Below are positions 12,365 to 55,548 of a stretch of 56,828 nucleotides of DNA, in pieces (the first letter of the stretch is position 1; each line of letters begins with the position of its first letter). A model generated the notes under the pieces. The model was not told where the DNA came from. It saw only the letters and a list, made by a program, of their open reading frames with translations, and did not search any database. Origin of the DNA: Staphylococcus sp. (GTDB lineage Bacteria; Bacteroidota; Bacteroidia; Bacteroidales; Muribaculaceae); the NCBI GenBank assembly GCA_023665865.1, contig JAMPDC010000001.1, forward strand, positions 570,852 to 627,679, read 5' to 3'. The position numbers and the translations under genes are program-made.

Positions 12365-12415
12365 TTTGTAAGTTGTGAATCTAAATATTCAATGAAAAAT
12401 ATTCTATAGGTAGGC

Positions 12416-13621: not shown

Positions 13622-13820
13622 TATTTCCAAGTATTTGTGACATATTTTTTCCAACAGATTTTCCTAACAAATCAGGCCGGCCGGCAAAAGACTCACCCAA
13701 CGTACCGCCGGCCACCAGACATCGGAAAACGACACCCTTCCGCAGCGACGGGCAACAGCCGTTTCGCGGCCGTTTTTCATCATTATATGTGAGATCATCA
13801 CAATTTTCATCGCCTCATCC

Positions 13821-39287: not shown

Positions 39288-39302
39288 GTGGTCCCACTTG
39301 GG
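39288..39302 (-). repeat. Attachment-site copy (distal end of island)
   Basis: The 15 bases GTGGTCCCACTTGGG are identical to 55474-55488, which is the 3' end of the tRNA gene plus one base. Matches stop at once on both sides. This is the direct repeat left by site-specific integration. Confidence 0.85.
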
Positions 39303-39552
39303 AAAACCCACTTCGGAAATATCCTTTATATCAATGATTTGCAAAGGTTGTCTTCGCTATCTCCAACATTTGAGCCTTGTATGGCCTTCCGCATTCTTCC
39401 GCATATTGCTTCCGGCTCCGCCTTCAAATTGCTAATCGGCACACGATGCTCTCCATCTTGTCTCTGCAAATATAACGGGAATTTCCTTACATATAGCGCA
39501 AATGGATTGTTAAAAAAGCCATCTCTTTTCTTGTTCACCATTGTCTTCGATT

Positions 39553-41097
39553 TTATTCATTGACTATCCACTCCCCATTTTTATTTGCGCCTTTCCGACT
39601 AAGTCTTCCGGTTTCTTGAAGTCTGTTAGTGATTTTAATCACCCCTCTCTTTGTCATTTTTATCAATGAGGCAACTTTTTCCAGTGTTAAAGAGGGATAA
39701 GATTTTAGCAATATCAAAACTTTTGTTTCTGATGAACTATTGGTGAATTCCGGTGTACTCGCAAGAATTTCCGGTGAACTTTCTGGTGAACTGTTTTGAT
39801 TTTCTGGTGAACTCTCCTGAAATTCTTGTGTGCTTTCTTGTGAACCTTGACTATTTTGAGTTACATCGGTGTCGTTCTGAGCGACATTTCGAGAGACATG
39901 GCCCTCTAATGATGATTTTGTAGGTCGTCTGAAGGTCACATAAACAAAACCACCCTCCCGTCGCCATATTGGCTCTTCAATTCCTTGTTCACAGCATGCC
40001 TCAATGATGCGCTTGGCACCGGTGCCCCAGTTCTCGAGCCACGTGGTGCGATATAAAGCTTCGGCAATCTTGGGATTATACGGATAGGAGTCGTGCGGAT
40101 TCTTGATGGTTTCAGGCGTTATCTCCGGAGGGAAAACACCGGGATTGCCAATCTCGATTCGGTCATCGTAGATGGCGATACTGTTGGTGAGATTATATCT
40201 CTCCCATTGGCGATGACAAAGCGAATTAATCAATGCCTCTCGTAAGGCTTTGTATGGCACTTCAAGTCTCTCCTCGCGCTGAAGACTGTGATTCGTTATC
40301 TTACCACTGAGATTAAGATGCTTGAAAAAGAATGCCATTCCGGCATCCAACAAGTCAAAGAAACTGCCTTCGACCCGTTGGTTGTCGATAAACTCATCTT
40401 TTTCTGTTCCAAGGAAACGTGCGAGTCTCAACTGGAAATTGGGATACTCATCCACCTTGTCGGAAAAAAGCATAGCAGCTCCATTTGTCGGCACACCATT
40501 CTTCATGAGTTTCCACTTTGACAATGTCTCCTCAATAGGAGCGGTCAAAGCACTCGCCGGAATCCTGCCACCCTCGACACCCATGCGGATACAACCCTCA
40601 ATGCGTTGCCTGTTGAGATCTTCCAAGGCGACCCCGTCAGCAGGCTGTAGTTCCCATGCGTAAGATTTCGGTGTATATGCCCTGATGCGCTCGTCATACA
40701 TATCATGCGGCATGACCTTCGTAGTGCTTTCCACCTTATAATAAGGACGTCCATGGAAAGTATGCGGACGTTCGCCCCATACCCAACCGTCGAAGTGCAT
40801 GGCGATGACCTTATGCCCCGGATACTCCGGCACATCGACATATTCAACATTCACATCCACTGTCGGCTCCAATCCGGCGAGAGCCTGCGCAATCTCCTGC
40901 TGCGTCCTGTCGGTCACCTCCTGCCCTACAATCTTCAGCGACCTCGGTGTAACCCCGAAAATCAGCCAGCCACCCTCCGTATTCAGAAACGCGCACGCCG
41001 CATGCATCCCGTCTTTCAACTCGCCGGTACTCTTCTTCAGCTCCAGAGTCCTCGACTCATCCGCCGCCACCAAAGTTTTTATATCGTCAATAGTCAT
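39553..41097 (-). CDS. Schlafen/AlbA_2-domain ATP-binding protein with wHTH tail
   Basis: The 514-residue protein starts at the ATG at 41095-41097 (MTIDDIKTLVAADESRTLEL). Residues about 15-130 form the AlbA_2 (Slfn-like) nucleic-acid domain with ESRTLELKKSTGEL and NTEGGWLIFGV. The middle resembles the RecG-like/COG2865 ATP-binding region, with EALINSLCHRQWERYN and WGTGAKRIIEACCEQGI. A Gln/Ser/Glu/Pro-rich linker with repeated SSPE/STPE units follows, then a winged helix (SLTLEKVASLIKMTKRGVIK). The family acts as regulators or defence accessories; the role here is unknown. A 167-base gap separates it from the R-M operon. Confidence 0.8.
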   Translation of the reverse strand: MTIDDIKTLVAADESRTLELKKSTGELKDGMHAACAFLNTEGGWLIFGVTPRSLKIVGQEVTDRTQQEIAQALAGLEPTVDVNVEYVDVPEYPGHKVIAMHFDGWVWGERPHTFHGRPYYKVESTTKVMPHDMYDERIRAYTPKSYAWELQPADGVALEDLNRQRIEGCIRMGVEGGRIPASALTAPIEETLSKWKLMKNGVPTNGAAMLFSDKVDEYPNFQLRLARFLGTEKDEFIDNQRVEGSFFDLLDAGMAFFFKHLNLSGKITNHSLQREERLEVPYKALREALINSLCHRQWERYNLTNSIAIYDDRIEIGNPGVFPPEITPETIKNPHDSYPYNPKIAEALYRTTWLENWGTGAKRIIEACCEQGIEEPIWRREGGFVYVTFRRPTKSSLEGHVSRNVAQNDTDVTQNSQGSQESTQEFQESSPENQNSSPESSPEILASTPEFTNSSSETKVLILLKSYPSLTLEKVASLIKMTKRGVIKITNRLQETGRLSRKGANKNGEWIVNE

Positions 41098-41264
41098 AAG
41101 CAATAATATTTAGCGTAAGTAAAACCATGAGAAGAAAAATATATAATTATACAATATTACACTTCAAGGGAGTAGTATTGTAAAAAGTCAATCTATTTTC
41201 TTGACCTTTTTGCAACGGGGTAATCAAGTAATTATATGAATCGATTATGATAATATCCATATAC

Positions 41265-43133
41265 TTAATTGTTTAAGTTTACGCCATATAAGTTCTCAAT
41301 GTAAAAATTTAGGTCTTCTTCTTTGAGACTCAAAATTATGTCTTCCTCTGTTTTAGAGAGTTTAGGGATACCAAAATTTTTTACATAGTTTTTTGCTAAC
41401 GCGAAATAGTTTCCACCATAAGGTTTACTGGTATGTTTAATATAATACCAGAAAACTGAAGACTGCAATATTCGGCGTAATACTTTAAGTTTGCGGCTTG
41501 AATCGCTAACGATGGCATATCCATTATAAAAAAGCAGCGTCTCGTCTTCCGATAAAACAAAGTACGGCTTGTCAGCTAGATATGGAAAAAGTAATTTTTT
41601 CCCAACAATATTCAAAGCCTGAGTACGACCAAAAGCATACCATGAAGCATAAGTTCTCGACTCTTTGTCACGTTTTTTCAGTACCTTAAATTTTTGTTTC
41701 AAATAGTCTAGAGCATAAGGAAAGTCTATTCTCATTCTATCTTCATCAATAAGAATAGCTCTATTGTCAGTAGATATTCTGTAAGGGAATATAATATATT
41801 CCAACTCTTTATCAATGTCTGCGTCTTCTTTCAATATATTGGGTTTAATAGCTTTCCGACAGATACTTTTTTCTATTCTACGCTCTACGCCATCATCTCT
41901 AATAATAAAATATTTCTTTGTTTCTCGAATGGGAGTAAGTAGATATACCTCATTCTTTAGTGTAGCAAATCCGTTTTTTATGTCAAAAAGTTTACCCAAT
42001 GGATTCCCAATGGATTCAATTATTTTAATATTCTTAGTGGTTACTGCATCACATAAAGTCCAACCTAAAAAGTCATCTAGATTCGGGTATTCAATACGAA
42101 TAAAATCTGAAAGTGAAATTTTATCCAAGTCATGACTTTTCTTTTTACAATATTCAATACTGCCCTCAGATCGAGATATTAAGCAAATGCATGTGTATGT
42201 GGAACGGCCTCTAAAAACTTGTTCAGATCCGAAATCAACCATTTTAAGTTTGTAGCAATGTTCGGACATGTAGGCTCTAAATGCTCTTCCATTCAGGCTT
42301 CGATAAAAATTATTCACTGTAATATAGCCTAATATTCCGTCCGGCTTTAATGCTTCTATGGCAATCTGGAAGAATGGTAAATACAGATCTGTCTTACCAG
42401 TAGAAGCCACAGACCACTTACCTAATAACAGTTTGCTCTCTTCTGAAATTTTAGATGAACTAACATATGGAGGATTACCGATTATAACATCGAGTCCATT
42501 ATTATATCCTATCTCATCTACACTACGAATGTCAAACTCTAATGAATTAGCTTGGAATAAATGGGGTTGATTGATAATATCTTCACCGTGAATCAAGCAC
42601 AGTAGATTTAATATAATTTGAGTTCGTTCGATGCTGTATGCGGCAATATCTACACCATAAAAATTTAAGATTATGTCATTAATTGGTGTATTTGTCTTTT
42701 GATGTATGTATAGTGCCGCTGTGATAAAGAATCCTCCACATCCACATGAAAGATCTCCAATTTTAATCTTCGTAAGTTCTAAATCTGAATATCTTTTTAA
42801 GACTTCTTTAACTATATATTCTCGTATATATAAAGGAGTATATACAGCTCCATTAACCTCTTTCTCGGCAGGGGAAATAACGAATTCAAACAGTTCAAGA
42901 ATATCTTCTATTGATAGTGTTACATTATTTTTTTTAAGAACATTAATAAAGTCTATAAAAAAAATGTTTTGGTTATCTATATAATCTGATAGAAAATCAG
43001 TCTTTAAAATGTCTATGTTATGTTGACGTAGAAAGGTCGTGATAATAAGGCGATCAACGAATTGACTATCTTTACCATCACAACATTTTTTGAAATATGT
43101 CAATATTTGTCTGCTCAGCATAGATGAGGGCAT
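41265..43133 (-). CDS. Gamma-class N6-adenine DNA methyltransferase (TaqI-like)
   Basis: The 622-residue protein has a methyltransferase core: GAVYTP (95-100), SAM-binding motif I DLSCGCGGF (127-135) and catalytic NPPY (220-223), an order typical of gamma-class adenine methyltransferases. Residues about 370-620 look like a TaqI-type target-recognition domain (IGNPLGKLFDIKNGFATLKN; KPYGGNYFALAKNYVKNFGI). I see no PD-(D/E)xK nuclease motif, so it is probably methylation-only or needs a partner. The ATG at 43133 overlaps the preceding gene by 19 bases. The DNA is strongly AT-rich compared with the chromosome. Confidence 0.88.
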   Translation of the reverse strand: MPSSMLSRQILTYFKKCCDGKDSQFVDRLIITTFLRQHNIDILKTDFLSDYIDNQNIFFIDFINVLKKNNVTLSIEDILELFEFVISPAEKEVNGAVYTPLYIREYIVKEVLKRYSDLELTKIKIGDLSCGCGGFFITAALYIHQKTNTPINDIILNFYGVDIAAYSIERTQIILNLLCLIHGEDIINQPHLFQANSLEFDIRSVDEIGYNNGLDVIIGNPPYVSSSKISEESKLLLGKWSVASTGKTDLYLPFFQIAIEALKPDGILGYITVNNFYRSLNGRAFRAYMSEHCYKLKMVDFGSEQVFRGRSTYTCICLISRSEGSIEYCKKKSHDLDKISLSDFIRIEYPNLDDFLGWTLCDAVTTKNIKIIESIGNPLGKLFDIKNGFATLKNEVYLLTPIRETKKYFIIRDDGVERRIEKSICRKAIKPNILKEDADIDKELEYIIFPYRISTDNRAILIDEDRMRIDFPYALDYLKQKFKVLKKRDKESRTYASWYAFGRTQALNIVGKKLLFPYLADKPYFVLSEDETLLFYNGYAIVSDSSRKLKVLRRILQSSVFWYYIKHTSKPYGGNYFALAKNYVKNFGIPKLSKTEEDIILSLKEEDLNFYIENLYGVNLNN

Positions 43134-43870
43134 AGTAGATTGCTACTTTTCCATTGGAGTTTGCTGTCATCACAATCCCAATGAGATGCGATATTCAAAA
43201 AATATGGCTTAAGGATCTTATTTTTTGCTTGATTATATAAACGGTTAAATAATGGGTCCTTTAGATATTCTTCGAATACTCCCTTATAATGGAAATTCGT
43301 CAAATAAAAGCCTATTCCCAGTACAATATCCATTGGGTGATGAACTATTCTTGGACTATCCAAATACACAAGATGCCCCCAATCAAAATCGGTATTTGAT
43401 TTTCCTAAAAGACTGCAACCGTTCGAATATTGCAAGTGATATAAGGGATGATGTTCATCTGAATCATCTCCAGAATCTTTGTCAACATGCCAACAGATAG
43501 AATATTTGATGTTATCTTTTTCTCCAAAAATTATTGCAGCAAAATTATATGATATAAAGGGGTCCTCAAGTTGATTCCAATGCTCCACATTGCATCTCAC
43601 ATTACAATCAATTCGAACCCTTAAAGTTCTTATTCCGGATGGTTCTATATGTTTGTTTATACCTAAAGGTAACACAAGATTTGTTATGTTATAACCCCAT
43701 GTTGGATTTCCATCCTTTAGTTCTGCTTCTTTCATTAATTCAGTGGCTGCCACCCTTAACGGCTCCAATGCCTGAGTTGCGTTTTTTATCTTCCTTTGAA
43801 GAAAACTGTGGAGTCGAGTCAGTTCTTGTGCTCGTTGTATCTTAAAGGTACTAATTTGTGAAACATTCAT
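43115..43870 (-). CDS. Unrecognised 251-residue protein in the R-M/GHKL operon
   Basis: I cannot place this protein in a named family. The N-terminal 50 residues are helical and possibly coiled (QELTRLHSFLQRKIKNATQA). The middle is beta-rich (SGIRTLRVRIDCNVRCNVEH). A His-rich core follows: WHVDKD, then HHPLYHLQYSNG and DSPRIVHHPMDIVLGIGFYL. The tail carries several Cys and His (HWDCDD, LLCPHLC), so metal binding is possible. Its start overlaps the receiver-gene stop by 4 bases and its end overlaps the methyltransferase start by 19 bases, so it is probably made in step with both. Confidence 0.75.
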   Translation of the reverse strand: MNVSQISTFKIQRAQELTRLHSFLQRKIKNATQALEPLRVAATELMKEAELKDGNPTWGYNITNLVLPLGINKHIEPSGIRTLRVRIDCNVRCNVEHWNQLEDPFISYNFAAIIFGEKDNIKYSICWHVDKDSGDDSDEHHPLYHLQYSNGCSLLGKSNTDFDWGHLVYLDSPRIVHHPMDIVLGIGFYLTNFHYKGVFEEYLKDPLFNRLYNQAKNKILKPYFLNIASHWDCDDSKLQWKSSNLLCPHLC

Positions 43871-44979
43871 TTTTTTAGATCTTCTCGATTAATCTTGAAA
43901 CGGTTCAATTCGGACTCCTTTACAGTAATTCTATCGTGATAATCATCCTGCGCAATACCCAAAAATGAAATATACTTGGGATCTTGCCACGGTCTAAGTT
44001 CATACGACTCATATACTTCGTAACCTTCCATTGAATCCAATGGCTTTTTGGTAGCTTCACAGATAGTGTCAAAATATGAACTATTTGCAAATTTTAATGG
44101 TGTAGCTGGTTTAATACCGCTAAGACCATAATTTTTAACTATGATTTCTACTCGTTCCTCTGCGTTTAACGATACCCAAGATGCTCCGCCTGATATTTTT
44201 TGGAAAAGATCGTTTAGACGATGGCTCCAGAATCTCTGCCAGCCGCTTGCAAATACACCTGTATATCTCAAAGATGGCTTCAGGATTTCAAGTAATCTGA
44301 ACCATTCAGGTGATTGATCAATGTCAATTCCTAATCTAGCAGCCAATGTCTTTTCTTTAATTAATATACCAGGGTGTTGTAGTATGTCTTTAATAATGAA
44401 TTGAGCATATTCGTGCGGCGCGTGTTCTTTTCCTGATATAAATCTGTCAAAAATACGGGAATCGAAATCTTTTATTTCCTCATTAGGCAGATCGAGAATG
44501 GCTGTAAGATCTCCATCAACAAGAATAGGATATCCTTCAGCTAATGAACACATTTTAGCTCTCACTTTCTCCCATTTAATATCCTGACTTTTTACAAACT
44601 TATAATCGTATAAATCATGGGATACTTTATCGGCATTATACGTATGTTTTAGTTTCTCATCAGTAGAACAGAGTATAATTGGAAGACTCTGCAAGCTCTT
44701 GTCTGATGCTAAGCTTCGTATATGTTGCGCAATGGGGGCAGCTGTAAAATTAAGTCTGTTTACCCCCTCACCGTTGAGGCAAAGGTCAATCAAGATTCCA
44801 TTTACATTATTATCTGAAACAGACTGACGTATTTTATCCGTTAACGAGTCGAAGGTCTCACCATGAGATAGATTGAATAATTCAACACAGACCTTTTGGG
44901 TATCATTGAGTCCATGAATCAACGATGTGATTGAATTATCTCTCTCATCATCAATGTAAATATAATGCGGAATGTTCAT
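43867..44979 (-). CDS. Receiver-like protein with unknown C-terminal domain
   Basis: Residues 1-135 of this 370-residue protein look like a response-regulator receiver: acidic pair Asp10-Asp11 (YIYIDDE), candidate phosphate acceptor Asp65 (GILIDLCLNG), Ser105/Thr106 (IILCSTDE) and Lys130 (YKFVKS), at the relative positions expected. The C-terminal 230 residues match no output domain I know and show no DNA-binding motif. It follows the kinase-like gene by 10 bases, so it is the natural partner of that protein. Phosphotransfer is inference. Alternatively it is a degenerate receiver used only for binding. Confidence 0.75.
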   Translation of the reverse strand: MNIPHYIYIDDERDNSITSLIHGLNDTQKVCVELFNLSHGETFDSLTDKIRQSVSDNNVNGILIDLCLNGEGVNRLNFTAAPIAQHIRSLASDKSLQSLPIILCSTDEKLKHTYNADKVSHDLYDYKFVKSQDIKWEKVRAKMCSLAEGYPILVDGDLTAILDLPNEEIKDFDSRIFDRFISGKEHAPHEYAQFIIKDILQHPGILIKEKTLAARLGIDIDQSPEWFRLLEILKPSLRYTGVFASGWQRFWSHRLNDLFQKISGGASWVSLNAEERVEIIVKNYGLSGIKPATPLKFANSSYFDTICEATKKPLDSMEGYEVYESYELRPWQDPKYISFLGIAQDDYHDRITVKESELNRFKINREDLKK

Positions 44980-44989
44980 ATAGTTTTTA

Positions 44990-47284
44990 TTATAGCTTGG
45001 GAATTTCTATTCTAAATGTAGTTTTATATCCGGGATTAGGATTTTCTTTAAGACGAATAAATCCGTTATAACTAGATAATATATCTGATATTATTTTTAG
45101 ACCTAAGCCTGTTCCTGTATGTACATCAACATCTGAACTATTTTGTGAAGCAACACCTGTTGTAGTAACAAAAGCATCGAATATTCTATCTTTGATATTT
45201 GGGTCTACTCCACATCCATTATCAGAAAAATCAATAAATATATTTGAATCATTCTCCCCACATTCAATCTTGATATGACCGGAATTCAGACCACTTTTCC
45301 TAATTGCTTTTTTAGAGTTTGTATATAAGTTGAATAGAATGGAAGCCCATTCTGAAGGATGCATAGGTACGGTAGTCATATCTGATAGCAGAATGACATC
45401 ATCATCTAAATTGGTATTTATCTTTATATGAGCTTTTAAAGCATTTCGCTCGATAATATTTAAAAACGTACTTATTCGTTCTTTAATATGGACCGGTTCA
45501 AGATCTCTATTCACATTCCTAGAAATACTTTTGTCGAAATAGAGAGTATAACTAGAAAAAGCATCTACATTGTTTTTTAACAGTGAGATTCGCTCCATTG
45601 CGGCGTTATTATCTGCTAACAAATCGTTTAGATATGATATCTCAGCATCAAATCCAGGAAGGTAATTTTTGATTTCATGTACGAATTCTCCAATAACTAA
45701 ACCGAGGGCAGCAAAAATTCGCAACATATTATTTTCATCAATCAATGCTTGCGTTTCTGAAGAATCTTCATCTAGACCCTCTGATATCTTCTCATATATA
45801 TCGCGATATTGCTGTTGTCTATCATTATCAGAGGTTCGTTCAGAATCTTGTGCAGACTCTGAGCCCGTTAATCTTTTGAGATCATCTAATCCTTCTTTAA
45901 TTTTGTCCTTACCTCGTTTAGACCAGTTCTTTTGATTCGCGGTCTTCTTCTTTTGACGGATTGAAGCTATTTCAAGTCCCGCTGAAATTATGGCTCTATA
46001 CAAAAAATCTGTCATTTCCTGATATGCTTCATTTTCTACAAGTCCCTCTCGGCTAGATGTTTCTTCAAATAAATCTGTAGAAACATCACCGATCTCTACG
46101 AATCCAAAAAAACTTTGATTCTGATGAGGGAAAATATATGTACGTCTTCGCACAGATTCATCTAATCCGATCCAATCATTTCCACTTTCTCCGTAAGGCG
46201 GAACCCTGAATCCATTACGATACAATTTAATTCCTCCAGATTCATTGCCTAATCTCTTTACATATGAGAATATAGATTTTGGAATTAAGTCGGAGTCGTA
46301 AATAAAATAATATGTTTTAAAATATATGTCATGAATATGAGAAAATTCACAGGAATCATTTTCTCTACATTTCCCAATAGATTGATATTCTGTATTTGTA
46401 ATATCTAGTTTAGCACTAGACATACGCCAAAAGCCATTACCTTTATGGTTAACATATCCTTCAATCACAGCCAAGGCGTGATTAAAGAATGCACTATCTT
46501 CATCAATTATGCAGTTATTAACTGAGATAGAATCTCGATAAATATTTGCCTTAAATCCAGGATCATTACGTTCCATATCCCATTTTTTTCTTTCGGAAGA
46601 TAGTGGTTCTGGAATAAGTAGATTCTCTGTATATTTATATGCACGTTTGATTGCAGCATCAGACCAGCCGTCATTTAAGGAGTCAATAATAAGTGTCGTG
46701 CCATTTTTCTTTGTTTTCGGTATAAAGTCGATCGAAAAACAGATATCGGTCAAATTTCTATCGGTTAAAAATTCATCCCATTTAATAAAAGCTCGAATGG
46801 CTAAATCCATATCATTAGTTTGCGTTATGATGGTCAATTCACGACCAAGACGCTGAGTTGCAAATCGACCAATTCCTTTACGTCCTGCTTTACGACGTTT
46901 GTATTTATGAGAAACTGGATTGTGAATTTTGTCAGAAGATGATATTCTCATAAATCCATTTATAAGCTCTTCATACGACATTCCGACACCATCATCATCA
47001 ATGATTAGAGTGCCACCAGGCTTTAATGCATTTTTAAACACTAAGTCAACTTTGGTTGCATCGGCATCATAAGCATTTTTTATTAATTCAGATATTGCGG
47101 TTTCTCCTTTCCCAACAAGTTCTTTCCCGAGCCTATTTATTAGTCCAGCATCAACACTAAAGCGTACATGCTCCTTATCCAATTGAGCGAGCTCATTGGA
47201 TAAGGATAGGATTGCAGAATAATCTGGTTTTTCTGATTTAAGTAATAGGGAAAGTTCCTCCTTGATTTTTTGTTCTGTTCTCAT
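44990..47284 (-). CDS. Dual GHKL ATPase: MORC/Hsp90-like N-terminus, histidine-kinase-like C-terminus
   Basis: The 764-residue protein has two GHKL ATPase domains. The N-terminal one, of Hsp90/MutL/MORC type, shows ETAISELIKNAYDADA (Glu66, Asn70), DDDGVGMS (96-103) and GRKGIGRFA (134-142). The C-terminal one, of histidine-kinase type, has N-box Asn652/Asn656, G1 box DNGCG (688-692) and G2 box GTGLGLKI (724-731). Between them is an H-box-like IGEFVHEIKN with His536, after a charged linker (about 445-515). No membrane segment is seen. It is 2 bases after mod and 10 bases before the receiver-like gene, so kinase signalling within the R-M operon is likely. Confidence 0.88.
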   Translation of the reverse strand: MRTEQKIKEELSLLLKSEKPDYSAILSLSNELAQLDKEHVRFSVDAGLINRLGKELVGKGETAISELIKNAYDADATKVDLVFKNALKPGGTLIIDDDGVGMSYEELINGFMRISSSDKIHNPVSHKYKRRKAGRKGIGRFATQRLGRELTIITQTNDMDLAIRAFIKWDEFLTDRNLTDICFSIDFIPKTKKNGTTLIIDSLNDGWSDAAIKRAYKYTENLLIPEPLSSERKKWDMERNDPGFKANIYRDSISVNNCIIDEDSAFFNHALAVIEGYVNHKGNGFWRMSSAKLDITNTEYQSIGKCRENDSCEFSHIHDIYFKTYYFIYDSDLIPKSIFSYVKRLGNESGGIKLYRNGFRVPPYGESGNDWIGLDESVRRRTYIFPHQNQSFFGFVEIGDVSTDLFEETSSREGLVENEAYQEMTDFLYRAIISAGLEIASIRQKKKTANQKNWSKRGKDKIKEGLDDLKRLTGSESAQDSERTSDNDRQQQYRDIYEKISEGLDEDSSETQALIDENNMLRIFAALGLVIGEFVHEIKNYLPGFDAEISYLNDLLADNNAAMERISLLKNNVDAFSSYTLYFDKSISRNVNRDLEPVHIKERISTFLNIIERNALKAHIKINTNLDDDVILLSDMTTVPMHPSEWASILFNLYTNSKKAIRKSGLNSGHIKIECGENDSNIFIDFSDNGCGVDPNIKDRIFDAFVTTTGVASQNSSDVDVHTGTGLGLKIISDILSSYNGFIRLKENPNPGYKTTFRIEIPKL

Positions 47285-47286
47285 GA

Positions 47287-49281
47287 TTATTCTGTTAATA
47301 CTATTATTGTTTCGTCGCCGCAGATGTTGCGGATTTTAAGGCGTAGGGGCTTGGTGTCGGAATGGATGGTACCGTCCCAGAAGTCGGAGGTTTTGCGACC
47401 ATTGATTGTTACGGTACTGTCTTTCTCGATTTTGATTTCAGAATCGCTATGCCAAGGTGCATTTAATTCGGCATTGGTACAGTCAAGGGAAATCATTTCG
47501 ATCGCCTCCAATCCTTCAAGACTTATTTCAATTGGCGTGAACTTCTTTTTTGAGTTTGCCATTGCTTTCTGGTTGAAATCATTTATTTTATGACTCACCC
47601 TGTCACTGTAGAACCGCCTGATTGCAACAGTGAAAATATCAACCATCTTAGTGGTGTCTTCTAAAAGCGTATATTCTACTTCGTCTTGCAAAATTGCATT
47701 GTCGAGCAATTCTTTAAGGTCGCGGAGTTCTACTTCAATGACAGTGTCGTTATTGTCTTTGATGAAGGTGTCTAATTCCTGACGATCAACCATGTCAATA
47801 TAATATACAATGACACGCTTTGTTGTCGGAGGCAATTGTGGCATAGCATCATTGATGATACGGTTGAGAGTCACGATGTCAAGTACTCTTGATGAGGAGT
47901 CCATTAAATCGGGGATATATACCGGTGATGAACCGTAAGTAGAATCTCCTATGCTGCCAATCCACATTGAGCCAATTGAAGCATCGACACGTAACCCAGG
48001 GATAATTCGGGTGATTGCATCTTTGGTCTGAATTGGATTACGATACAGTGTTACTCCATCCTGCACCTTCTTTACGGTAAAACTTGCGCCGCTGGTTTTA
48101 AGACGGTCACGGGCGGTCTGAATACTGTTGATATTTACATCAGCATGAATGAAGTTTCGACCGGATTTAGCTGCTACGGCAGATGTGACACCGCTACCAC
48201 CGAAGAAGTCGGCAACAATCATCCCCTCGTTGCTACTTGCCTTGATTATGCGTTCAAGCAATGCCTCAGGCTTCTGAGTGGCGTAACCCTCCTTTTCTTT
48301 GGCTTGTGAATTTATTGGCTTAATATCAAGCCACATGGATTGAGAAGGCATACCTGGTAATTCATCAAGTGATCGGATACCACCATTTTTTGTAAAATGA
48401 AGTCGACCGTCTCTATCCATCTTCTCCATTGTCTCCAGTGGCATTCTCCATAAAGAACGACATCCCTTGTAAGTATAATCATATCCACCTCCACTAAGAC
48501 CTTTCGCTGTGAGATTTCCACTTTCCCACTTACGACCATCTTTATCGACTTGCGTAAATCGAGCTAAATAAGACTCATCATATGGTTGAAAAATCGTGTT
48601 GAAATTGTAATCTATTTGGGACTTAGTGTAGAAATAAATACAATCAAAATTGTTCCCATAAAATTCAGCATCGCTATGGGCTGTAGCGCGTTTCCATATA
48701 ATCTCATTTCTAAAATTATCTTCTCCGAAGATTTCGTCAAGCAGAATCTTCACATAGTGGCCGATGTGATAGTCAAGATGAACATAAATCGAGGCATTCT
48801 CGCTCATAACGGAGCGGATTGCCATTAGATTCTCGTACATCCAGTTGAGATATTTCTCTTTGTCCCAGATGTCGCCATACATCTTCTCCTCAAAAGCCTT
48901 CAGTTCGTCATCGTCGAGTTCCTGTTGGGCTTGTTTGATAGCTTTGGCCACAAGCGGATTCCGGCGTATATAAACCTTCTTAGCATAGTCGGCACCGCTG
49001 GCAAAGGGTGGGTCAATATATACCAAATCAACTTTTATGCCCTTCTCCTTGAGATAGGCACAAGCTGAGACACATTCTCCGTGAATTATCATATTGTCTG
49101 ACTCAACCTCACCGACACGCTCAATGTCAGTGACTTCATAAAGCGGCATACCACGAACGATACGCTCCGTCACCTTGTCGCTTTCGCGATAACGGAGAAT
49201 GCGTTGGGTGCGCACAAAATTATCGAGAACTGCTTGTCCGGATACCGGGTCGGGGAAATATGGAACATATTTTATAGCCAT
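47287..49281 (-). CDS. Type III restriction-modification methyltransferase (Mod)
   Basis: Mod methylates adenine in one strand of a short asymmetric site and gives the Res-Mod complex its specificity. The 664-residue protein has the catalytic DPPF (90-93, VDLVYIDPPFASGADYAKKV) before the SAM-binding FFGGSG (359-364), the beta-class order typical of Mod. KINSQAKEKEGYATQKPEALL-like residues precede motif I. The region between is the likely target-recognition domain. The C-terminal 300 residues carry the Res-contacting part. The start ATG is at 49279-49281, 7 bases after res. Confidence 0.93.
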   Translation of the reverse strand: MAIKYVPYFPDPVSGQAVLDNFVRTQRILRYRESDKVTERIVRGMPLYEVTDIERVGEVESDNMIIHGECVSACAYLKEKGIKVDLVYIDPPFASGADYAKKVYIRRNPLVAKAIKQAQQELDDDELKAFEEKMYGDIWDKEKYLNWMYENLMAIRSVMSENASIYVHLDYHIGHYVKILLDEIFGEDNFRNEIIWKRATAHSDAEFYGNNFDCIYFYTKSQIDYNFNTIFQPYDESYLARFTQVDKDGRKWESGNLTAKGLSGGGYDYTYKGCRSLWRMPLETMEKMDRDGRLHFTKNGGIRSLDELPGMPSQSMWLDIKPINSQAKEKEGYATQKPEALLERIIKASSNEGMIVADFFGGSGVTSAVAAKSGRNFIHADVNINSIQTARDRLKTSGASFTVKKVQDGVTLYRNPIQTKDAITRIIPGLRVDASIGSMWIGSIGDSTYGSSPVYIPDLMDSSSRVLDIVTLNRIINDAMPQLPPTTKRVIVYYIDMVDRQELDTFIKDNNDTVIEVELRDLKELLDNAILQDEVEYTLLEDTTKMVDIFTVAIRRFYSDRVSHKINDFNQKAMANSKKKFTPIEISLEGLEAIEMISLDCTNAELNAPWHSDSEIKIEKDSTVTINGRKTSDFWDGTIHSDTKPLRLKIRNICGDETIIVLTE

Positions 49282-49288
49282 AGCTGAA

Positions 49289-52138
49289 TCAGTTTTTCAA
49301 GAATGTATTAATTACTGCGATTGTTTTCCGAAGACGAGCTTCTTGGGACATCGTATCTTCGATATAAAGAAATGAAAATCTGTCTCTACCATATTTCTCA
49401 TTATTGAGCCGGATGAACATTTCTTCCATAAATTGCTTGCGCGGTTCAAACTTGGCTGCAAATCCTTCGCCCTTAGTCTCGACAATCACAAGTTTATTGA
49501 TAGAATTATCTTCATTACGGGTGAGCAGAATGAAATCAGGGAAATAATATCCGAGCATTTTCCATGTCCTGCCACGTTTGGCGTAGCACCGAATCTTGAA
49601 ATCGGTGAGCGTATCATCGCCATTGAAATAGAACTCTATACCCGGTTCAGACTTCAAGTGATTGATGACACTTTTGAGATATTCATCTTCCAAATTGCTG
49701 TCAAGATGGTACGGAAGATAATGATAAGTACGGTCGTTAATAGACTGTTCCATTTCGGGAAGCGGCAGATTATTCTCAATCAAATATCTGCGTACTTCTT
49801 CGGAGATTGTTTTTACAGGTTCGCTGTCCTTTCTTACAATTTCAGCGACCTTATCCTGCGAAGGAACGTAGGTGGAATTAGACGGCACTTCGATTGGCGA
49901 ACGTAGAACATTAACTTTAAGCAAAGATGCTTCTTCTGGCACAAGTTCTTCTGTGACGGTGAAACTGCGTTTTGCAACAAACACACAACGGATATCAGTC
50001 CGAACTTTGCGCTGGTCAATGTCAGGGTTGAAAATCTTTGTGCCATCTTCTCTTGTTCCCGTTATCTTTTCAAAGAGGTTTTGAAGTTCATTCTCATATT
50101 TCAAGATTTCAGACAAGCGCAATGTGCCAAAACTCTCTTTGATGATATGGTCAATCCATCCTCGGAAAGTAGCTACATCAACCATGCCGTAGATTGACGC
50201 ACTCTCAGACACCTGATTGTCCGTATCAAAACCTTGTGTGTATATCACAGCCGCGTCCTTCATTGGAATCTGATACCCGTTGATAAATTTTGCAATATCA
50301 ACAACATTTTCAGTTTCAATGGTCTTGTAGTTAATCTGAACTTGATAGAAATCGACAGGTGGTATCTTCAATTTCTCCATACGCGAGTGACGATAGATTG
50401 TCACCAGATTGTCGGGTGACTTACCTCCAAATTCGTGTATGGTCGTATATTGTTGTTCCTGCAATTGCTGATTTAACTTGTCAACATTGAATTTATTGAG
50501 CCAGATTAGAGCAGTCTCTTTTCGGGCATCATCTACTCCACGCAGACAGCGGCAGCTGATCTGAAGCACCATGTTCTGCGGACAAGAATTGCGCTGTGAC
50601 AGAATAACTCCGGTCAGACTTTTGCAGTTCCATCCTTCACGTCCTATGCCTACAAGTAGAATGATACGTTTCTTTGAGATCGGAGAGTCAAGTTGTGCAA
50701 ATTCAAACTGAGCATCCTCAGCCACTGAATAATCTTTATTGCCTTTATGGTATTTCAGGATTGCCTCAGATGGATTGATGCCTAATTCAGCACAAATATT
50801 ACATGCTTCTGGAAAAATTTCCTCCTCGAGTACTTTGATAGAAGGCGAATAGACTGCAATTTTAGCAGATGTGCCATTATGATAGGTCGTAGTAGCATAA
50901 TCCTCAAAGAATTCCTTAAGTCCTTTGCTGATAATCTCTGATGAATCAAGATTGGCATAACGCACTTTCGGTATTTTCAAGAAATTTCCGATACCCTTAA
51001 TCAGAGGATAGTATGTTACGACATTGGCATACTGTGTGCATTTAATGGAGAGTTCGTCTGAAATCTGTATGCGAGTAGCGGGATCCATATTGGGGGTGCC
51101 CGAAAAGCCAAGCACTGAGTTAAAGTTGCTTTGCTCCATCCATTTGTCTACCACCTGTCGCAATTTCTGGTCATCGCTTGCATGATGCACCTCATCTATC
51201 AAAACGCATAATCCGGGAATCTTGCCGATTTGCTCACGTAATTCGTTCGCCTGTCTTGCAGCCTCATACTCCTTACGGTCCTCTTCGCTCAATAATTTTA
51301 GAAGTGAGTTATCAAGATTGGTCTCTTTATCAATCTTGTCAAGAATCACTTTCTCAGCATTAGTTACAGCAACCAAACCCATCAAATCAGGATTTGCTGC
51401 ATGCATACTGATTTTGCGGGCATTCGGATTTTTTACGATATTGCTTTTTGAGGCAGACGAAGTATCCTGCAACCATTCATATTGAATGAGGTTTCGTAAT
51501 TGTGAAGCCACCGGATCCGGAAGAATCCAAGTGGGGTCGAAATTCTGTATATCCCGCAGGCTCGGGACTATCGATGACTTTAATCCCGAAGGCACAAAAA
51601 TTATGAAGTTGTGTGCGAATACAGGATTATCAGGCTCTGACAGGGCAAAATATAGATTGAGATATATCAAAGCTGCCATCAAGTATGTCTTACCAGCACC
51701 CATTGGTATGCTGAATAGATAGTCGGGATAACTTACATTGAAGAACAGTCCTTTAAGAACTTTAGGATAATCAATTGAACGTGGTGCACGTTTTATTTCG
51801 GCAATAATTTTTGGAGAATTAACATTCCCTTTCTCATCTGAGATAGAGGCGTACTCCCACAGCGCCAATGCCGCTGGATTGGACTGCAATTCTTCTCTTG
51901 TAGTCCGATTTATTTCAAGAGTGTCGACATCAGTGGAATTAAACACACCGGAAGCAAACAACTCCCATAATGGGCGGTTTTTACATTCAATCTTAAGAAA
52001 CAAGTATGTCTTTATAGAGTCAATCTGGGCATCACGCATCATGTGCTGCCTTTCAATATAAGATATAAGATCAGAAACGACACAGCCTCGGGAACTGAGC
52101 CATTCATCTCTTTTTCGTTCAATTATCTTATAAAACAT
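49289..52138 (-). CDS. Type III restriction enzyme (Res) helicase-nuclease
   Basis: Res is the ATP-dependent motor and nuclease subunit of type III R-M systems (949 residues). Superfamily II helicase motifs are Walker A GAGKT (147-151), DEVH near 315, GFSGTPNMDP and the C-terminal LVGIGREGWNCKSL with QISCRCLRG. The PD-(D/E)xK nuclease at the C-terminus has Asp868 in PDFILL and Glu887-x-Lys889 in VIVETKG, so cleavage ability looks intact. The ATG is at 52136-52138, 1 base after the XRE gene stop. Gene order res-mod is reversed from the common mod-res order. Confidence 0.93.
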   Translation of the reverse strand: MFYKIIERKRDEWLSSRGCVVSDLISYIERQHMMRDAQIDSIKTYLFLKIECKNRPLWELFASGVFNSTDVDTLEINRTTREELQSNPAALALWEYASISDEKGNVNSPKIIAEIKRAPRSIDYPKVLKGLFFNVSYPDYLFSIPMGAGKTYLMAALIYLNLYFALSEPDNPVFAHNFIIFVPSGLKSSIVPSLRDIQNFDPTWILPDPVASQLRNLIQYEWLQDTSSASKSNIVKNPNARKISMHAANPDLMGLVAVTNAEKVILDKIDKETNLDNSLLKLLSEEDRKEYEAARQANELREQIGKIPGLCVLIDEVHHASDDQKLRQVVDKWMEQSNFNSVLGFSGTPNMDPATRIQISDELSIKCTQYANVVTYYPLIKGIGNFLKIPKVRYANLDSSEIISKGLKEFFEDYATTTYHNGTSAKIAVYSPSIKVLEEEIFPEACNICAELGINPSEAILKYHKGNKDYSVAEDAQFEFAQLDSPISKKRIILLVGIGREGWNCKSLTGVILSQRNSCPQNMVLQISCRCLRGVDDARKETALIWLNKFNVDKLNQQLQEQQYTTIHEFGGKSPDNLVTIYRHSRMEKLKIPPVDFYQVQINYKTIETENVVDIAKFINGYQIPMKDAAVIYTQGFDTDNQVSESASIYGMVDVATFRGWIDHIIKESFGTLRLSEILKYENELQNLFEKITGTREDGTKIFNPDIDQRKVRTDIRCVFVAKRSFTVTEELVPEEASLLKVNVLRSPIEVPSNSTYVPSQDKVAEIVRKDSEPVKTISEEVRRYLIENNLPLPEMEQSINDRTYHYLPYHLDSNLEDEYLKSVINHLKSEPGIEFYFNGDDTLTDFKIRCYAKRGRTWKMLGYYFPDFILLTRNEDNSINKLVIVETKGEGFAAKFEPRKQFMEEMFIRLNNEKYGRDRFSFLYIEDTMSQEARLRKTIAVINTFLKN

Positions 52139-52139
52139 T

Positions 52140-52352
52140 TTACAACTCTATAATTTTACTGTTTATCAAATCATCAACTGTAACTTCCAAAAGCCTGGCA
52201 ATTTTAACAAGGGTAGGTAAATCAGGTTGGGAGCTGTTCGTACACCACTTTGAAACGGTTGAAGGGTTTACTTCCAATTGCTCACATAACCATTTATTCG
52301 TCCTCTTTTTCTCTGCTAAAACTACTTTCAAACGGTTTATATCAGTTTCCAT
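52140..52352 (-). CDS. XRE-family regulator, first gene of the R-M operon
   Basis: This 70-residue protein is almost entirely a Cro/C1-type helix-turn-helix: INRLKVVLAEKKRTNKWLCE, QLEVNPSTVSKWCTNSSQPD (recognition helix STVSKWC) and LPTLVKIARLLEVTVDDLIN. Such small regulators act as controller proteins of R-M operons, delaying restriction until DNA is protected. It is first in the operon, with a strong promoter 26 bases upstream, so self-control of the whole operon is likely. ATG at 52350-52352. Confidence 0.88.
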   Translation of the reverse strand: METDINRLKVVLAEKKRTNKWLCEQLEVNPSTVSKWCTNSSQPDLPTLVKIARLLEVTVDDLINSKIIEL

Positions 52353-52377
52353 GTCAATAAAATTTGTTATCCGTCCA

Positions 52378-52407
52378 CAAATTTAGTGAAAGTTTTTCAC
52401 ATGACAA
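52378..52407 (-). promoter_or_regulatory. Promoter of the island R-M operon
   Basis: On the minus strand TTG (52407-52405) and TAAATTTG (52385-52378) are 19 bases apart, an almost perfect Bacteroidetes promoter. The XRE ATG is 26 bases downstream of the -7 box. Confidence 0.75.
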
Positions 52408-52659
52408 TAAAACCAGTCAAGAATTTTCGGAATTTTCGGGGGTCTTATATTTTTGAAGTCAACATTGACTTTGCAAATTATGTTACCAGGCACTGGAAAC
52501 CGGATTGGTGCCCGATAACCCTTGCAAGTAGAGGGGTGGCAAAACTCCGAAGTCGTTTTGTTCAAAGACTATTTCTCAGGGCAGATTCTTTTTTATTTGG
52601 ATATGGTAACAAAAAAAGCCAATGGGAAGAACGACTTTGGAGTTCTTCCGGGTATATCA

Positions 52660-52714
52660 TGCAAGGGTGGTATGCAGCAAATCTGATTTGATGCTGCATA
52701 CCACATAACTTGCA
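52660..52714. repeat. Large two-part inverted repeat
   Basis: Inner arms 52667-52679 and 52692-52704 pair over 13 bases (GTGGTATGCAGCA / TGCTGCATACCAC) with a 12-base loop. Outer arms TGCAAG (52660-52665) and CTTGCA (52709-52714) add 6 pairs. No T-run follows. It may be a terminator, protein-binding site or nicking-site structure. Confidence 0.6.
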
Positions 52715-53382
52715 ATGAACAGGCGTTAATCAATAAAATAAAGACTCCGATAGAACCTATGGAAAGAAATATTGAGCAATGTTGGGAAACTATATGGAAA
52801 GGTCGGGAAACGACTGAAAATCAGAAAACTTTATTGATTTGATTACAGTTGTATAGGCAGAGACGGATAGATATTGATACCCCCGTAGGTTACTATGGAA
52901 CTTTATATGGAAATAGGTATCAACATCGGTATATAGCCATAGACGTATAACGATATATGCCTATGTCAATCCATAACTCTATATACACATGTATATGGTT
53001 AAGCCTGCAATCTTGATTGCAGCGTATGGTCAAACATGGATATATGATGGTTCAATATGGTGTATTTGAGATGAGCAGGGAACTATGATACAAAATCAGA
53101 TGTTTCTTTTATACAATGGATTAGGTATCCTATCGTTGAATCACATCAATTCATTTATTCAATCATGTGTTTGAACGTTTAATCGATCAAACGTTTAAAC
53201 ATTTCAAGAATCAAATGATTAACTGAATGATGAGTCATTCAAATATACATACAGTCGATTGATTAGTCGATTACTTACATGGCTTTTGATTGCAGGTCCA
53301 GAATTGCAGTCGAGGCGATTATTATATGCGGCCCACGGTCGCGCCACTGAATCCTATTTTCAAATTCTAAACAAAAACATTT

Positions 53383-53694
53383 ATGGATTACGTTATTATC
53401 GAACGTGTCGTTTACGATGCGATCCTGGCACGTGTTGACGAATGTGCCAGAGGGCTGGAGGCTCTGATGAGGCTCTATGCTCCGAGAAATCTTGATGACT
53501 GGGTGGATAATGAGTCGGCCCGATCTATTCTGAAGCATGGTCTGCGCTCCATGCAGACCATGCGTTCATCCGGCAAAATCGGTTACTCTATCATCGACGG
53601 TAAGGTTTTCTATCCGATGAGCGAGATTGACCGTTTGCTGAAACTGTCCTACGTCGAGGATGGCGGACAGATTCCATGTGCTGACGTCGGATGA
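53383..53694 (+). CDS. Small HTH (excisionase-like) protein 1
   Basis: This 103-residue protein is of the MerR/excisionase-like helix-turn-helix kind common beside Bacteroidetes integrases. A helical N-terminus (VDECARGLEALMRLYAPRNL) leads to DDWVDNESARSILKHGLRSM, then QTMRSSGKIGYSIIDGKVFY and PMSEIDRLLKLSY, the pattern of a winged HTH with a short wing. Its end overlaps the next HTH gene by 35 bases. It likely controls excision or island genes; direct function is not shown. Confidence 0.75.
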   Translation: MDYVIIERVVYDAILARVDECARGLEALMRLYAPRNLDDWVDNESARSILKHGLRSMQTMRSSGKIGYSIIDGKVFYPMSEIDRLLKLSYVEDGGQIPCADVG

Positions 53695-53947
53695 GGTCAG
53701 CAGCATCTTATCAAAACTGAGAGGCGTGAGTGATGGCATTGAAATGCTGTCGGAACAGGCCATTCAACCAAGACAATATCTTACGGATACAGAACTGTCA
53801 GCAGAGTTGAAGGTCAGCAAGAAGACACTCGCCAATTATCGGGCGAACGGAGAATTTGGTTACTATGCCTTACCGGGTAAGATTCTCTATGACACCGTAG
53901 AAATAGACGTCTTCTTGCAGAAGCATTATCTGCCGCCATTCCGCTGA
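53660..53947 (+). CDS. Small HTH (excisionase-like) protein 2
   Basis: This 95-residue protein has the same layout as its upstream neighbour: an N-terminal helix (EVSSILSKLRGVSDGIEMLS), then the HTH LTDTELSAELKVSKKTLANY, the wing RANGEFGYYALPGKILYDTV and a final helix EIDVFLQKHYLPPF. This matches the helix_turn_helix_17/excisionase type. It is read in another frame and overlaps gene 1 by 35 bases; the two may be diverged duplicates. It faces the convergent integrase, 54 bases away. Confidence 0.78.
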   Translation: MADRFHVLTSDEVSSILSKLRGVSDGIEMLSEQAIQPRQYLTDTELSAELKVSKKTLANYRANGEFGYYALPGKILYDTVEIDVFLQKHYLPPFR

Positions 53948-54001
53948 AAATTTTCGTCCCTGCCGGAGTTGTTCCGGTCGGGACGAATTTTCATTTGGCC
54001 G

Positions 54002-55232
54002 TCACTTTTGAGAACCGAATTTGGCAGCCAGAGAGCCAATCTGCTCAGCGATGGATTTATCCACCACTTTCGCATAGATTTTTGTGGTGCGTATATCGGA
54101 ATGGCCCAACATTCGGGCGATGACCTCCATCGACACTCCGTTTGCGAGTGCGAGGCAGGCGAAACTATGTCGGGCGATGTGCATTGTTAACGGCTTGTTG
54201 ATGCCGCATATTCCGGCTATCTCACCGAGATATGAATTCATCCGCTGATTGGATATGACCGGGAGCAATACTCCACGAGACTCGCACAGTGGATGGTCCT
54301 TATATTTCTCGGCAATGGCACGTGCCGATTCCAGATAAGGAATGCTGCAAAGATTTTTGGTTTTCTGACGAGCCTTGTGAATCCAGTAGTTGCCTTCTTC
54401 ATCGACTGATACGTGCTCCGGCTTCAATCCCTCAACATCAGAAAATGAAAGACCTGTCAAGGCGCAGAATACGAATATGTCGCGAACCACATTCAGCCGT
54501 TCAAGCGTGAATATCTTGTTCATGATTGTTGACAATTCTTTTTCAGTGAGGAACTGGCGGTTGGTAGCCTTAGCTTGAAAGCGCATCCCTTGGAATGGAT
54601 TTATTTCCATCCATTTATTGTCGAGTGCGAGGACAACAACCTTTTTCAGAATCTTGCAATACTTGTTGGCTGTGTTCTGCTCCAGACCCTTGTCGACTCT
54701 GAGGAAAAGATGGTAATCGCGAACGAAGGCAGTGTCTATGGAAGAGAATGGAAGATCATCTGCATTATACTGTTTCTTTATGAACTCGCCGAGATAACGT
54801 TCTGCACGCTCATTGCGGAGAACGGTGTTCAGCACCACATCTTCCTATAGCGAGTCGCTGACGATACTTTTCGTTCTCCTGCTGAAATACCTCGCGGAGC
54901 ATTTTCGGACGTTCGATGCGTCCGGCGTAAGCGTCAAGTATTGTCTTGGGGTTGATGAGTTTCTTCTCATCAATGAAACGCTGGTGGATTTTCAGAATCC
55001 TTGCGAGGGTGTCATCGAGATAGTCGTTCAGTTCGAGCGACAGGCGGTCGCGCCCGGTGGAGCGTTGACGTTTCTCATTCCACGTCTTAGGATTAACACC
55101 GCGCTTCATGGAGATTTCAAGGAAACGGCCATCAATGGTGACGCGCATATACACCGGCGCATCCCCATTCTTCAACAGCTTCTTTCTCTTGATAAAGAAA
55201 AGGACGCTGAAAGTCGATTTTCTCTGTTGCAT
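54002..55232 (-). pseudogene. Tyrosine integrase of the island, split by a frameshift
   Basis: This is a phage-integrase-family recombinase of the Bacteroidetes type. The N-terminal part begins at the ATG at 55230-55232 (MQQRKSTFSVLFFIKRKKLL; another ATG at 55257-55259) and covers the Arm-binding domain. The frame is lost near 54841, after REVFQQENEKYRQRLAIG, and resumes one frame over as VVLNTVLRNERAERYLGEFI. The catalytic part keeps HIARHSFACLALANG (HxxR) and LGHSDIRTTKIYAKV (Tyr nucleophile); the first Arg site reads TGLSFSDV, as in CTnDOT-like integrases. A one-base gain or two-base loss explains the split; a sequencing error is possible. Confidence 0.85.
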
Positions 55233-55316
55233 GTCAAATAAACATTTAGGGTTCAACATAAGTTTTTCGACAAGATGAGAAAATTGTGTGCAACCACGCC
55301 TGAATCAAATCCTTGC

Positions 55317-55370
55317 GTCCAATCCGTTGGACATTTTCGGCAGAAAATCAAGTCCAACGGACAGTCCAAC
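55317..55370. repeat. GTCCAA repeat cluster and hairpin near the integrase
   Basis: GTCCAA occurs at 55317-55322, 55352-55357 and 55364-55369, plus inverted at 55327-55332. Arms 55323-55332 and 55352-55361 pair over 10 bases, and ATTTTC/GAAAAT (55333-55338 with 55343-55348) adds 6, with a three-base bulge. The cluster lies between integrase and attachment site, where integrase or excisionase sites would be expected. Confidence 0.55.
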
Positions 55371-55416
55371 GCGAAACTCCACATTCTTCCGGATTCTGCG
55401 CTCCGCCCTAAACGCA

Positions 55417-55451
55417 AAGAATCCTGAAAATCATTGATTTTCAGGATTCTT
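55417..55451. terminator. Island-borne hairpin downstream of the tRNA
   Basis: Arms 55417-55433 and 55435-55451 pair perfectly over 17 bases with almost no loop. On the minus strand it lies about 23 bases after the tRNA end and is followed by TGCGTTT. It could replace the terminator that the insertion moved away. Confidence 0.65.
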
Positions 55452-55473
55452 CCACGAATTGCTTTCGTATGTT

Positions 55474-55488
55474 GTGGTCCCACTTGGG
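55474..55488 (-). repeat. Attachment-site copy (tRNA end of island)
   Basis: GTGGTCCCACTTGGG forms the acceptor and T-arm 3' end of the tRNA plus one base. It is identical to 39288-39302. Confidence 0.85.
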
Positions 55489-55548
55489 CTTGAACCAAGG
55501 ACTCCCTGATTATGAGTCAGGTGCTCTAACCAACTGAGCTATAGGACC
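55475..55548 (-). tRNA. tRNA with anticodon CAT (elongator Met or Ile2)
   Basis: The gene is 74 bases including the discriminator A at 55475. The acceptor stem GGTCCTA pairs with TGGGACC, with one G-T pair. The D arm is GCTCAGTTGGTTAGAGC. The anticodon arm is CCTGA-CTCATAA-TCAGG, with anticodon CAT. The T arm is CTTGG-TTCAAGC-CCAAG. CCA is not encoded. It is not an initiator tRNA, because the first pair G1-C72 is Watson-Crick. Elongator Met and lysidine-modified Ile cannot be told apart here. It is the integration target of the island. Confidence 0.93.

Follow-up and report, generated by a model that had tools for sequence, protein, structure and literature searches.

A conserved kinase-receiver triad beside changing DNA modification genes in a seven-gene operon of a Muribaculaceae bacterium

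Is a packed run of seven genes, in which a type III-like restriction-modification (R-M) pair stands next to a histidine kinase, a receiver protein and a second methyltransferase, one system or more than one? The question is raised by positions 41265..52352 of a 56,828-nucleotide stretch of contig JAMPDC010000001.1 (assembly GCA_023665865.1, filed as Staphylococcus sp. and placed by GTDB in the Muribaculaceae, order Bacteroidales), hereafter the window. The genes, all on the minus strand, encode a small XRE-type regulator, Res, Mod, a GHKL/histidine kinase (HK), a receiver protein (REC), a protein of 251 residues (P251) and an adenine methyltransferase (MTase); HK, REC and P251 together are called the triad. 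The first-pass annotation had read them as one composite operon in which phosphotransfer switches restriction or a second modification. The layout that it gave, with gaps of 1, 7, 2 and 10 bases and overlaps of 4 and 19 bases, was confirmed from the open reading frame (ORF) list of the window, and because the genes share a strand and are tightly spaced, all seven are probably co-transcribed. Two units are found in the present analysis, Res-Mod and the triad with its MTase. On balance, though narrowly, we favour as a whole the explanation that the operon is a composite of these two units, which travel independently and have come to lie in one integrated island.

HK, REC and P251 form a conserved triad. 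A scan of genome contigs with HK gave at least 508 relatives, of which the best 80 loci, those nearest to the window's HK, were kept, with own-genome copies (L001-L003, L008) dropped. The genes in these loci are mechanical ORF calls, labelled by profiles trained on the same loci, and many of the records are metagenome bins whose organism names may be wrong. Going by record titles, the 80 loci are mostly from Bacteroidota, with further ones in Pseudomonadota, Campylobacterota, Thermodesulfobacteriota, Verrucomicrobiota, Chloroflexota, Planctomycetota, Acidobacteriota and Bacillota and in one haloarchaeon. Where HK exceeded 600 residues and at least 2.3 kb lay downstream (69 of the 80 loci), REC was present in 68 loci and P251 in 68; both were missing in L094, in which ORFs of 240 and 328 residues (12081-13786) follow HK where the two would be expected. 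The triad genes overlap or nearly do so in the relatives. Pairwise protein distances over 68 loci, after exclusion of those in which a triad protein is short or absent, gave r values of 0.905 for HK-REC, 0.850 for REC-P251 and 0.780 for HK-P251, each unmatched in 500 permutations. The first-pass annotation had proposed a gene-neighbourhood search with the GHKL and 251-residue proteins, and the outcome is that HK, REC and P251 do travel together.

Within the window's order, HK was matched at E <= 1e-30 in 11 of 392 other genomes, and the whole triad is present in six of these (G391, G478, G545, G591 (= L047), G645 (= L056) and G439). REC and P251, each searched for in 296 Bacteroidota genomes, were matched in the window's own genome alone. 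The idea of a private gene set, which came from these negatives, was rejected when the HK-led contig scan revealed many relatives; since that scan found triads, the negatives reflect rarity together with sequence divergence. In a plasmid collection, tblastn with REC and with P251 hit a single record in both cases, a Hymenobacter plasmid (L004), which carries HK, REC, a P251 relative and an N6 methylase in the same order, with a Piwi gene nearby; the N-terminal part of HK matched 94 further plasmid records. A scan of viral contigs with HK found no relative. On the Hymenobacter plasmid a Piwi-domain protein and a large DNA methyltransferase (5866-11503) divergently adjoin the kinase module.

The catalytic residues of the triad are conserved, and the HK-REC phosphotransfer residues are nearly invariant among the aligned relatives. 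H536, within the H-box FVHEIKN of HK, is found in 100% of 92 aligned kinases, as are N652 and N656, while E66, N70, D97, G99 and G101 of the N-terminal part are kept in 97-100%. This part, a HATPase_c_3 domain, is paraMORC-like, i.e. an N-terminal GHKL domain with ATP-binding motifs in an R-M setting, and the protein as a whole, HATPase_c_3 followed by the conserved His and HATPase_c and with an adjoining receiver, has HEF_HK-type architecture. REC gave a sub-threshold iREC match in Pfam and has a predicted receiver fold, in which the acid pair D10 and D11, the phospho-Asp D65, S105 and the Lys K130 are present. H536 and D65 are unchanged in every partner class described below. REC and P251 gave no match in NCBIfam or PADLOC, and in PADLOC HK gave three partial GHKL matches (best 6.2e-12 over 105 residues), with no specific defence-family match. 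The proposal that a histidine-kinase core and a receiver point to phosphotransfer was thus borne out as far as residues tell, and so was the tie between the signalling pair and DNA modification, an association that recurs in many genomes. Judging from sequence, HK would pass phosphate to REC in the cell.

The modification partner of the triad changes between loci. Counted by gene centres within 6.5 kb of HK, an MTase lies downstream in 36 of the 80 loci, upstream in 19 and on both sides in one; 14 loci have Ssp genes and 10 have no partner, seven of the latter with less than 1.6 kb downstream. Restricting the count to the 52 loci whose flanks reach 5 kb or more upstream and 4.5 kb or more downstream gives 24, 14, 1, 11 and 2 in the same order. 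MTase and Ssp genes were found together in none of the 80. The window's MTase is a near full-length match to PADLOC MTase_II (1.7e-108), its N220, P221 and P222 occur in 100% of 60 aligned sequences, and the three partner MTases scanned (window, L004 and L045) match methyltransferase models. The Ssp labels are based on L058, with PADLOC matches to SspB (5e-100), SspC (E 0) and SspD (1e-88). The Ssp genes stand directly upstream of HK and in the same direction in 11 of their 14 loci; they lie close by on the other strand in L066 and L067, and in L091, a short contig, SspD is the only one present. If XRE genes and ORFs below 100 residues are ignored, 35 of the 80 loci contain a run of only HK, REC, P251 and MTase, and there is therefore no separate nuclease gene in those runs. 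AbiEii-type genes were also seen in HK loci, by profile in L027, L042, L061 and L090 and by Pfam in L035 and L061, upstream of HK.

A tree of HK, made by a quick method from 78 rows (kinases below 600 residues left out, midpoint root for drawing only), requires at least five changes among the three partner states. In the 14-row group that contains the window, every other row has the MTase downstream. All 13 Ssp rows belong to a single 17-row group (SH-aLRT 100), which the drawing places within MTase rows; the Ssp-less rows there are L068, a short contig, L070 (4856-9497, with PbeA and PbeC) and, further, L073 (8937-9980, an HNH gene ahead of HK) and L087 (8644-9882, DpdB/DndB-like). In the class with the MTase upstream (17 loci), the triad genes correlate with one another at 0.91-0.94 and with the MTase at 0.31-0.44, values reached in 1, 4 and 10 of 500 permutations. 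Among the 25 of 149 families listed from a PADLOC scan of 108 neighbouring proteins at 15 loci were PbeA (6), PbeC (5) and SspA (4); SspE with three or fewer matches would not appear there, and none was found in ten large neighbours scanned singly.

Res and Mod belong to a separate unit. Type III R-M enzymes cut DNA in an ATP-dependent manner at two inversely oriented asymmetric sites. Res matches PF04851 over the cut-off; the endonuclease-domain model PF19778 is matched below its cut-off (15 against 23.4 bits), and a PD...ExK-like stretch near the C-terminal end can be made out by eye. Mod matches PF01555 at 141 bits, over the cut-off, which places an N6/N4 methyltransferase beside Res as in a type III pair; in PADLOC it matches MTase_III (3.3e-42) and, higher, MTase_II (5.7e-57). 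Of 383 other genomes in the order, seven have a Res relative (44-47% identity). In all seven, Mod is near Res and the HK, REC and P251 labels are absent from the fetched region, and these seven genomes do not overlap with the 11 that contain HK, the samples being of unequal size. A phmmer search with the window's Res (E <= 1e-5) found no relative in the other HK loci, and that with Mod gave one match among them, in L034. In G+C content, Res and Mod (41-43%) stand above the kinase unit (33-37%); the XRE gene has 36%, and G+C does not assign it to either unit. An XRE-like gene lies directly ahead of Res in L126 and L127 (two of the seven Res relatives) and directly ahead of HK in L020, L038, L039 and L089. 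In the explanation narrowly favoured above, Res-Mod would be an ordinary type III-like R-M pair, with or without the XRE gene, and a passenger here. Type III Res-Mod as the core of the system was rejected on the seven relatives without the triad and the lack of phmmer matches to Res in other triad loci. The first-pass view that the pair is integral to the system was not borne out, as Res-Mod occurs without HK in all seven relatives and differs in G+C. That annotation had also made its case depend on the neighbours travelling together, which is rare for Res-Mod; HK, REC and P251 do so, and the MTase mostly does. Its guess of phosphotransfer has stood on the residues, its inclusion of the R-M pair has not, and the wider pattern of the triad had escaped it.

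P251 is likely to be the effector of the triad. Its conserved positions are H128xD130, H141PxxH145, P173R174 and P179, read from the family alignment A5 (70 of 71 listed relatives and the window protein; L092 left out). The window protein matches no Pfam or PADLOC family, the DUF2290 model included (0 matches), and its structure model has a pLDDT of 89. Comparison with DUF2290 was prompted by a shared motif. The P251 profile and eight DUF2290 proteins aligned in hhalign with probabilities of 90 and 84 in the two directions, and P251 with one DUF2290 sequence at 69, against 0.06 and 0.1 in two control profile comparisons; the alignment pairs HxD with RxD, HPxxH with HPxxH and then the R/P/P and NF positions. 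In scans of the 71 P251 members as single proteins, DUF2290 in Pfam was matched by one (0.063), and PADLOC gave eight families with one member each (best 0.00059; DUF2290 0.0077). Profile comparison thus makes homology of P251 and DUF2290 likely. According to the available text of PMC9122126, DUF2290 is the helicase's partner, the second gene, in an anti-phage system inhibiting T7.

The reading that we prefer, and trust slightly more than we distrust it, is that the triad and its partner are a phosphorelay-controlled restriction module with P251 as effector. The modification partner would mark host DNA, and the paraMORC-like GHKL domain of HK, alone or with a partner, would use its ATP cycle to read unmarked sites, or another state, of invading DNA. 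HK autophosphorylation at H536 would change in response; the phosphate would move from there to D65 of REC, and phospho-REC would release or activate P251, which would then damage DNA or another nucleic acid. We infer the direction of signalling, phosphotransfer in the cell, the effector part of P251 and the defence role. With rather more doubt than belief, we suggest further that the triad is a modification-agnostic restriction module, docked to adenine methylation in the majority of the loci seen and to phosphorothioation (SspBCD) in one Bacteroidota group, with the partner's mark taken as self. If true, a His-Asp phosphorelay, normally a device of gene regulation, would gate restriction, one relay would serve two chemically different self-marks, and this would be, as far as we know, the first case of restriction under the control of His-Asp phosphotransfer. 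It would also become testable what some of the unpaired SspBCD sets use for restriction. The third gene would supply the suspected effector, a protein with a conserved polar site; the copy in the window lies outside the Pfam and PADLOC models. In the text available of PMC8092258, 2,211 of 2,678 sspBCD sets are without sspFGH and sspE, and other restriction counterparts or orphan roles are asked for; the triad would be one such missing counterpart.

Other explanations share part of this evidence. It is unlikely, though of the alternatives it is the one that we take most seriously, that the pair is a cytoplasmic two-component system merely regulating the neighbouring modification genes, with the C-terminal region of REC binding DNA and tuning transcription of MTase or Ssp genes and with P251 as an accessory. 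The receiver fold and intact phosphosite would suit such a role, and in the parts available of their papers the authors of PMC8011034 and PMC7464106 proposed that the expression of R-M or of SspE is controlled. P251 is, however, as constant as REC (68 of 69 loci each) and keeps its polar H/D/H/H/R set, the triad is found with unrelated partners, and a small XRE regulator already heads several of the operons. We regard as improbable that the triad is a sensor of DNA state or damage, or a maintenance element penalising loss of the modification partner, rather than anti-phage. Members of the MORC/MutL class of GHKL ATPases have functions in the remodelling and repair of DNA (PMC2292703, in the portion available) and modification genes are frequent partners, but the patchy spread over phyla, some of the neighbours (AbiEii, Pbe, AlbA and pAgo genes among them) and the island location suggest defence. 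The first-pass view of one seven-gene system, with a phosphorelay as the switch for type III restriction or for the second methyltransferase, accounts for the single strand, the tight spacing and the probable co-transcription; it is very unlikely, given that Res-Mod lacks the triad in all seven relatives, that phmmer found no relative of the window's Res in other triad loci, and that G+C differs between the units.

Several observations weigh against phosphorelay-controlled restriction or against the exchange of partners. The REC C-terminal region may have DNA or transcription as its target. The 80 loci are the relatives most like the window's HK. Five of the 11 HK genomes of the order have no whole triad (G555, with a receiver-like gene and an MTase, G321, G519, G613 and G682); the triad therefore marks a subfamily of HK and not all distant kin. 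In L084, a locus too short for the 69, an ORF of 458 residues (12308-13684) takes the place of REC. The P251 model has no clear fold match in the PDB, its alignment with DUF2290 spans 67 columns only, and single members gave stronger matches to AbiTii (0.0025 and 0.0017) and a Cas13 C-terminal model. In the class with the MTase downstream (33 loci), MTase and HK co-evolve (r = 0.92), and the MTase correlates at 0.84 with REC and at 0.67 with P251; by these class-wise correlations the triad is the constant unit and MTase exchange is clear in one class only. As the Ssp rows form one tree group, the present sample holds a single Ssp exchange. Prompted by PMC12421847, a second one was sought in 169 Moraxellaceae genomes. 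The kinase was matched in nine, among them the genome of L032. The loci of the other eight were fetched; four have HK-REC-P251 and an MTase (on the other strand in L165) and four (L167-L170) a more distant dual-GHKL kinase without P251, L168 with a weak REC match, and none of the fetched regions (11-19 kb) has a gene labelled Ssp. Some Ssp loci also contain PbeA/PbeC, an alternative restriction part.

The operon lies in a segment that looks like an integrated element with stacked defence-like cargo (Table 1). It spans 16.2 kb (39288-55488), and its G+C content, 39.8%, is lower than that of either flank (left 53.1%, right 47.8%); only 6 of 56,814 window positions start a 15-mer recurring on that strand. 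Between the repeats are the two-ORF integrase, two HTH_17 ORFs, the operon and, directly downstream of it on the same strand, an AlbA_2 (Schlafen-like) and HATPase_c_4 gene (39553-41103); in the Hymenobacter plasmid, too, a gene related to it by profile comes after the MTase. Because it is split over two frames, the integrase may be inactive or mis-assembled. By the Bacteroidota -7 promoter consensus, TAAATTTG is a possible promoter element.

Table 1 Operon genes and island features in window coordinates
Feature	Position	Strand	Basis
15-bp direct repeat of tRNA-Met 3' end, probable left attachment site	39288..39302	.	exact repeat
Adenine methyltransferase of Eco57I/N6_Mtase type with NPPY motif, 622 aa; the triad's modification partner	41265..43133	-	Pfam; PADLOC MTase_II
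P251, distantly DUF2290-like candidate effector, 251 aa	43115..43870	-	conservation; hhalign against DUF2290
REC, 370 aa	43867..44979	-	receiver aa ~2-156 and ~210-aa C-terminal region
HK, 764 aa	44990..47284	-	Pfam HATPase_c_3 (aa 61-159) and HATPase_c (aa 647-763)
Mod-like N6/N4 methyltransferase, 664 aa, Res-Mod unit	47287..49281	-	Pfam N6_N4_Mtase
Res-like SF2 helicase/nuclease, 949 aa, Res-Mod unit	49289..52138	-	PF04851; relatives with 44-47% identity
XRE/Cro-type regulator, small, 70 aa, operon head	52140..52352	-	HTH_26/HTH_3 Pfam
TAAATTTG, possible Bacteroidota -7 promoter element, ~25 bases ahead of XRE start	52378..52385	-	pattern occurs 47 times in window
Tyrosine integrase, two overlapping ORFs in different frames	54002..55259	-	54002-54838 SAM-like and catalytic; 54810-55259 arm-binding
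tRNA-Met; 3' end 55474-55488 is the other repeat copy	55474..55548	-	tRNA and repeat search

Among known systems, Detocs is reportedly a two-component anti-phage system with a purine nucleoside phosphorylase as effector and no DNA modification involved; it shares with the triad a histidine kinase and a receiver in defence. The Helicase+DUF2290 system (Rousset 2022, PMC9122126) has a second protein whose HPxxH and R..P..P signature is like that of P251, and it is a defence system, but no kinase or receiver is named for it in the text available, and the window's P251 misses the DUF2290 model. In all six plasmid loci fetched, DUF2290 follows a gene for an 'ATP-binding domain-containing protein' and not a kinase, whereas P251 is flanked by REC and the MTase, with Res further upstream past REC, HK and Mod, in the other unit. 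SspBCD-SspE and SspBCD-SspFGH (PMC8092258, in the portion available) resemble the 14 of 80 loci in which the triad or its kinase is near Ssp modification genes, although HK, REC and P251 of the window match no SspE or SspFGH model. A kinase beside Ssp genes has already been remarked on, since the accessible part of PMC12421847 mentions one of A. baumannii in an Ssp context. MORC and paraMORC ATPases were placed in R-M loci in 2008 (PMC2292703, accessible part); they likewise have an N-terminal GHKL domain whose ATP site is intact, and helicases, nucleases and methyltransferases are encoded near them. In the window, the protein with the GHKL domain also contains a complete histidine-kinase core and has a receiver as its partner.

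The first-pass statement that no such system had been described was too strong. In the text available of PMC8011034 (2021), kinase-like and regulator-like pairs, HEF_HK (PF19191) and Response_reg_2 (PF19192), stand beside R-M genes; the third gene is not described there. Like the window's pair, they combine a kinase of HATPase_c_3, a DHp-like part and HATPase_c with an adjoining receiver beside DNA methyltransferases, although chiefly, in that text, C5 cytosine methyltransferases and Vsr. HK against PF19191 and REC against PF19192 gave no match at E <= 1, and a Response_reg_2 search of the window's own genome was negative; a distant HK relative, L005, matches PF19191 at 0.0079, below the cut-off, and in a profile comparison part of the receiver of REC aligned with Response_reg_2 at a probability of 84. 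Response_reg_2 was matched in 14 of the 296 Bacteroidota genomes, over the cut-off in seven. At the seven HEF_HK loci fetched, the kinases have 966-1001 residues and the regulators 525-575, against 370 for REC, and none has a P251-labelled gene. Five neighbours scanned there were two upstream C5 methyltransferases, two downstream HNH nucleases and one without family; by analogy, which is no proof, the HNH nuclease after the regulator in two of the seven would hold the place of P251 here. The terms GHKL, receiver, HATPase, MORC, SspBCD and DUF2290 are absent from PMC10853773, and the accessible text of PMC12839542 does not describe the triad. Measured against the open-licence literature, HK, REC and P251 beside a DNA-modifying enzyme look like an undescribed bacterial defence unit.

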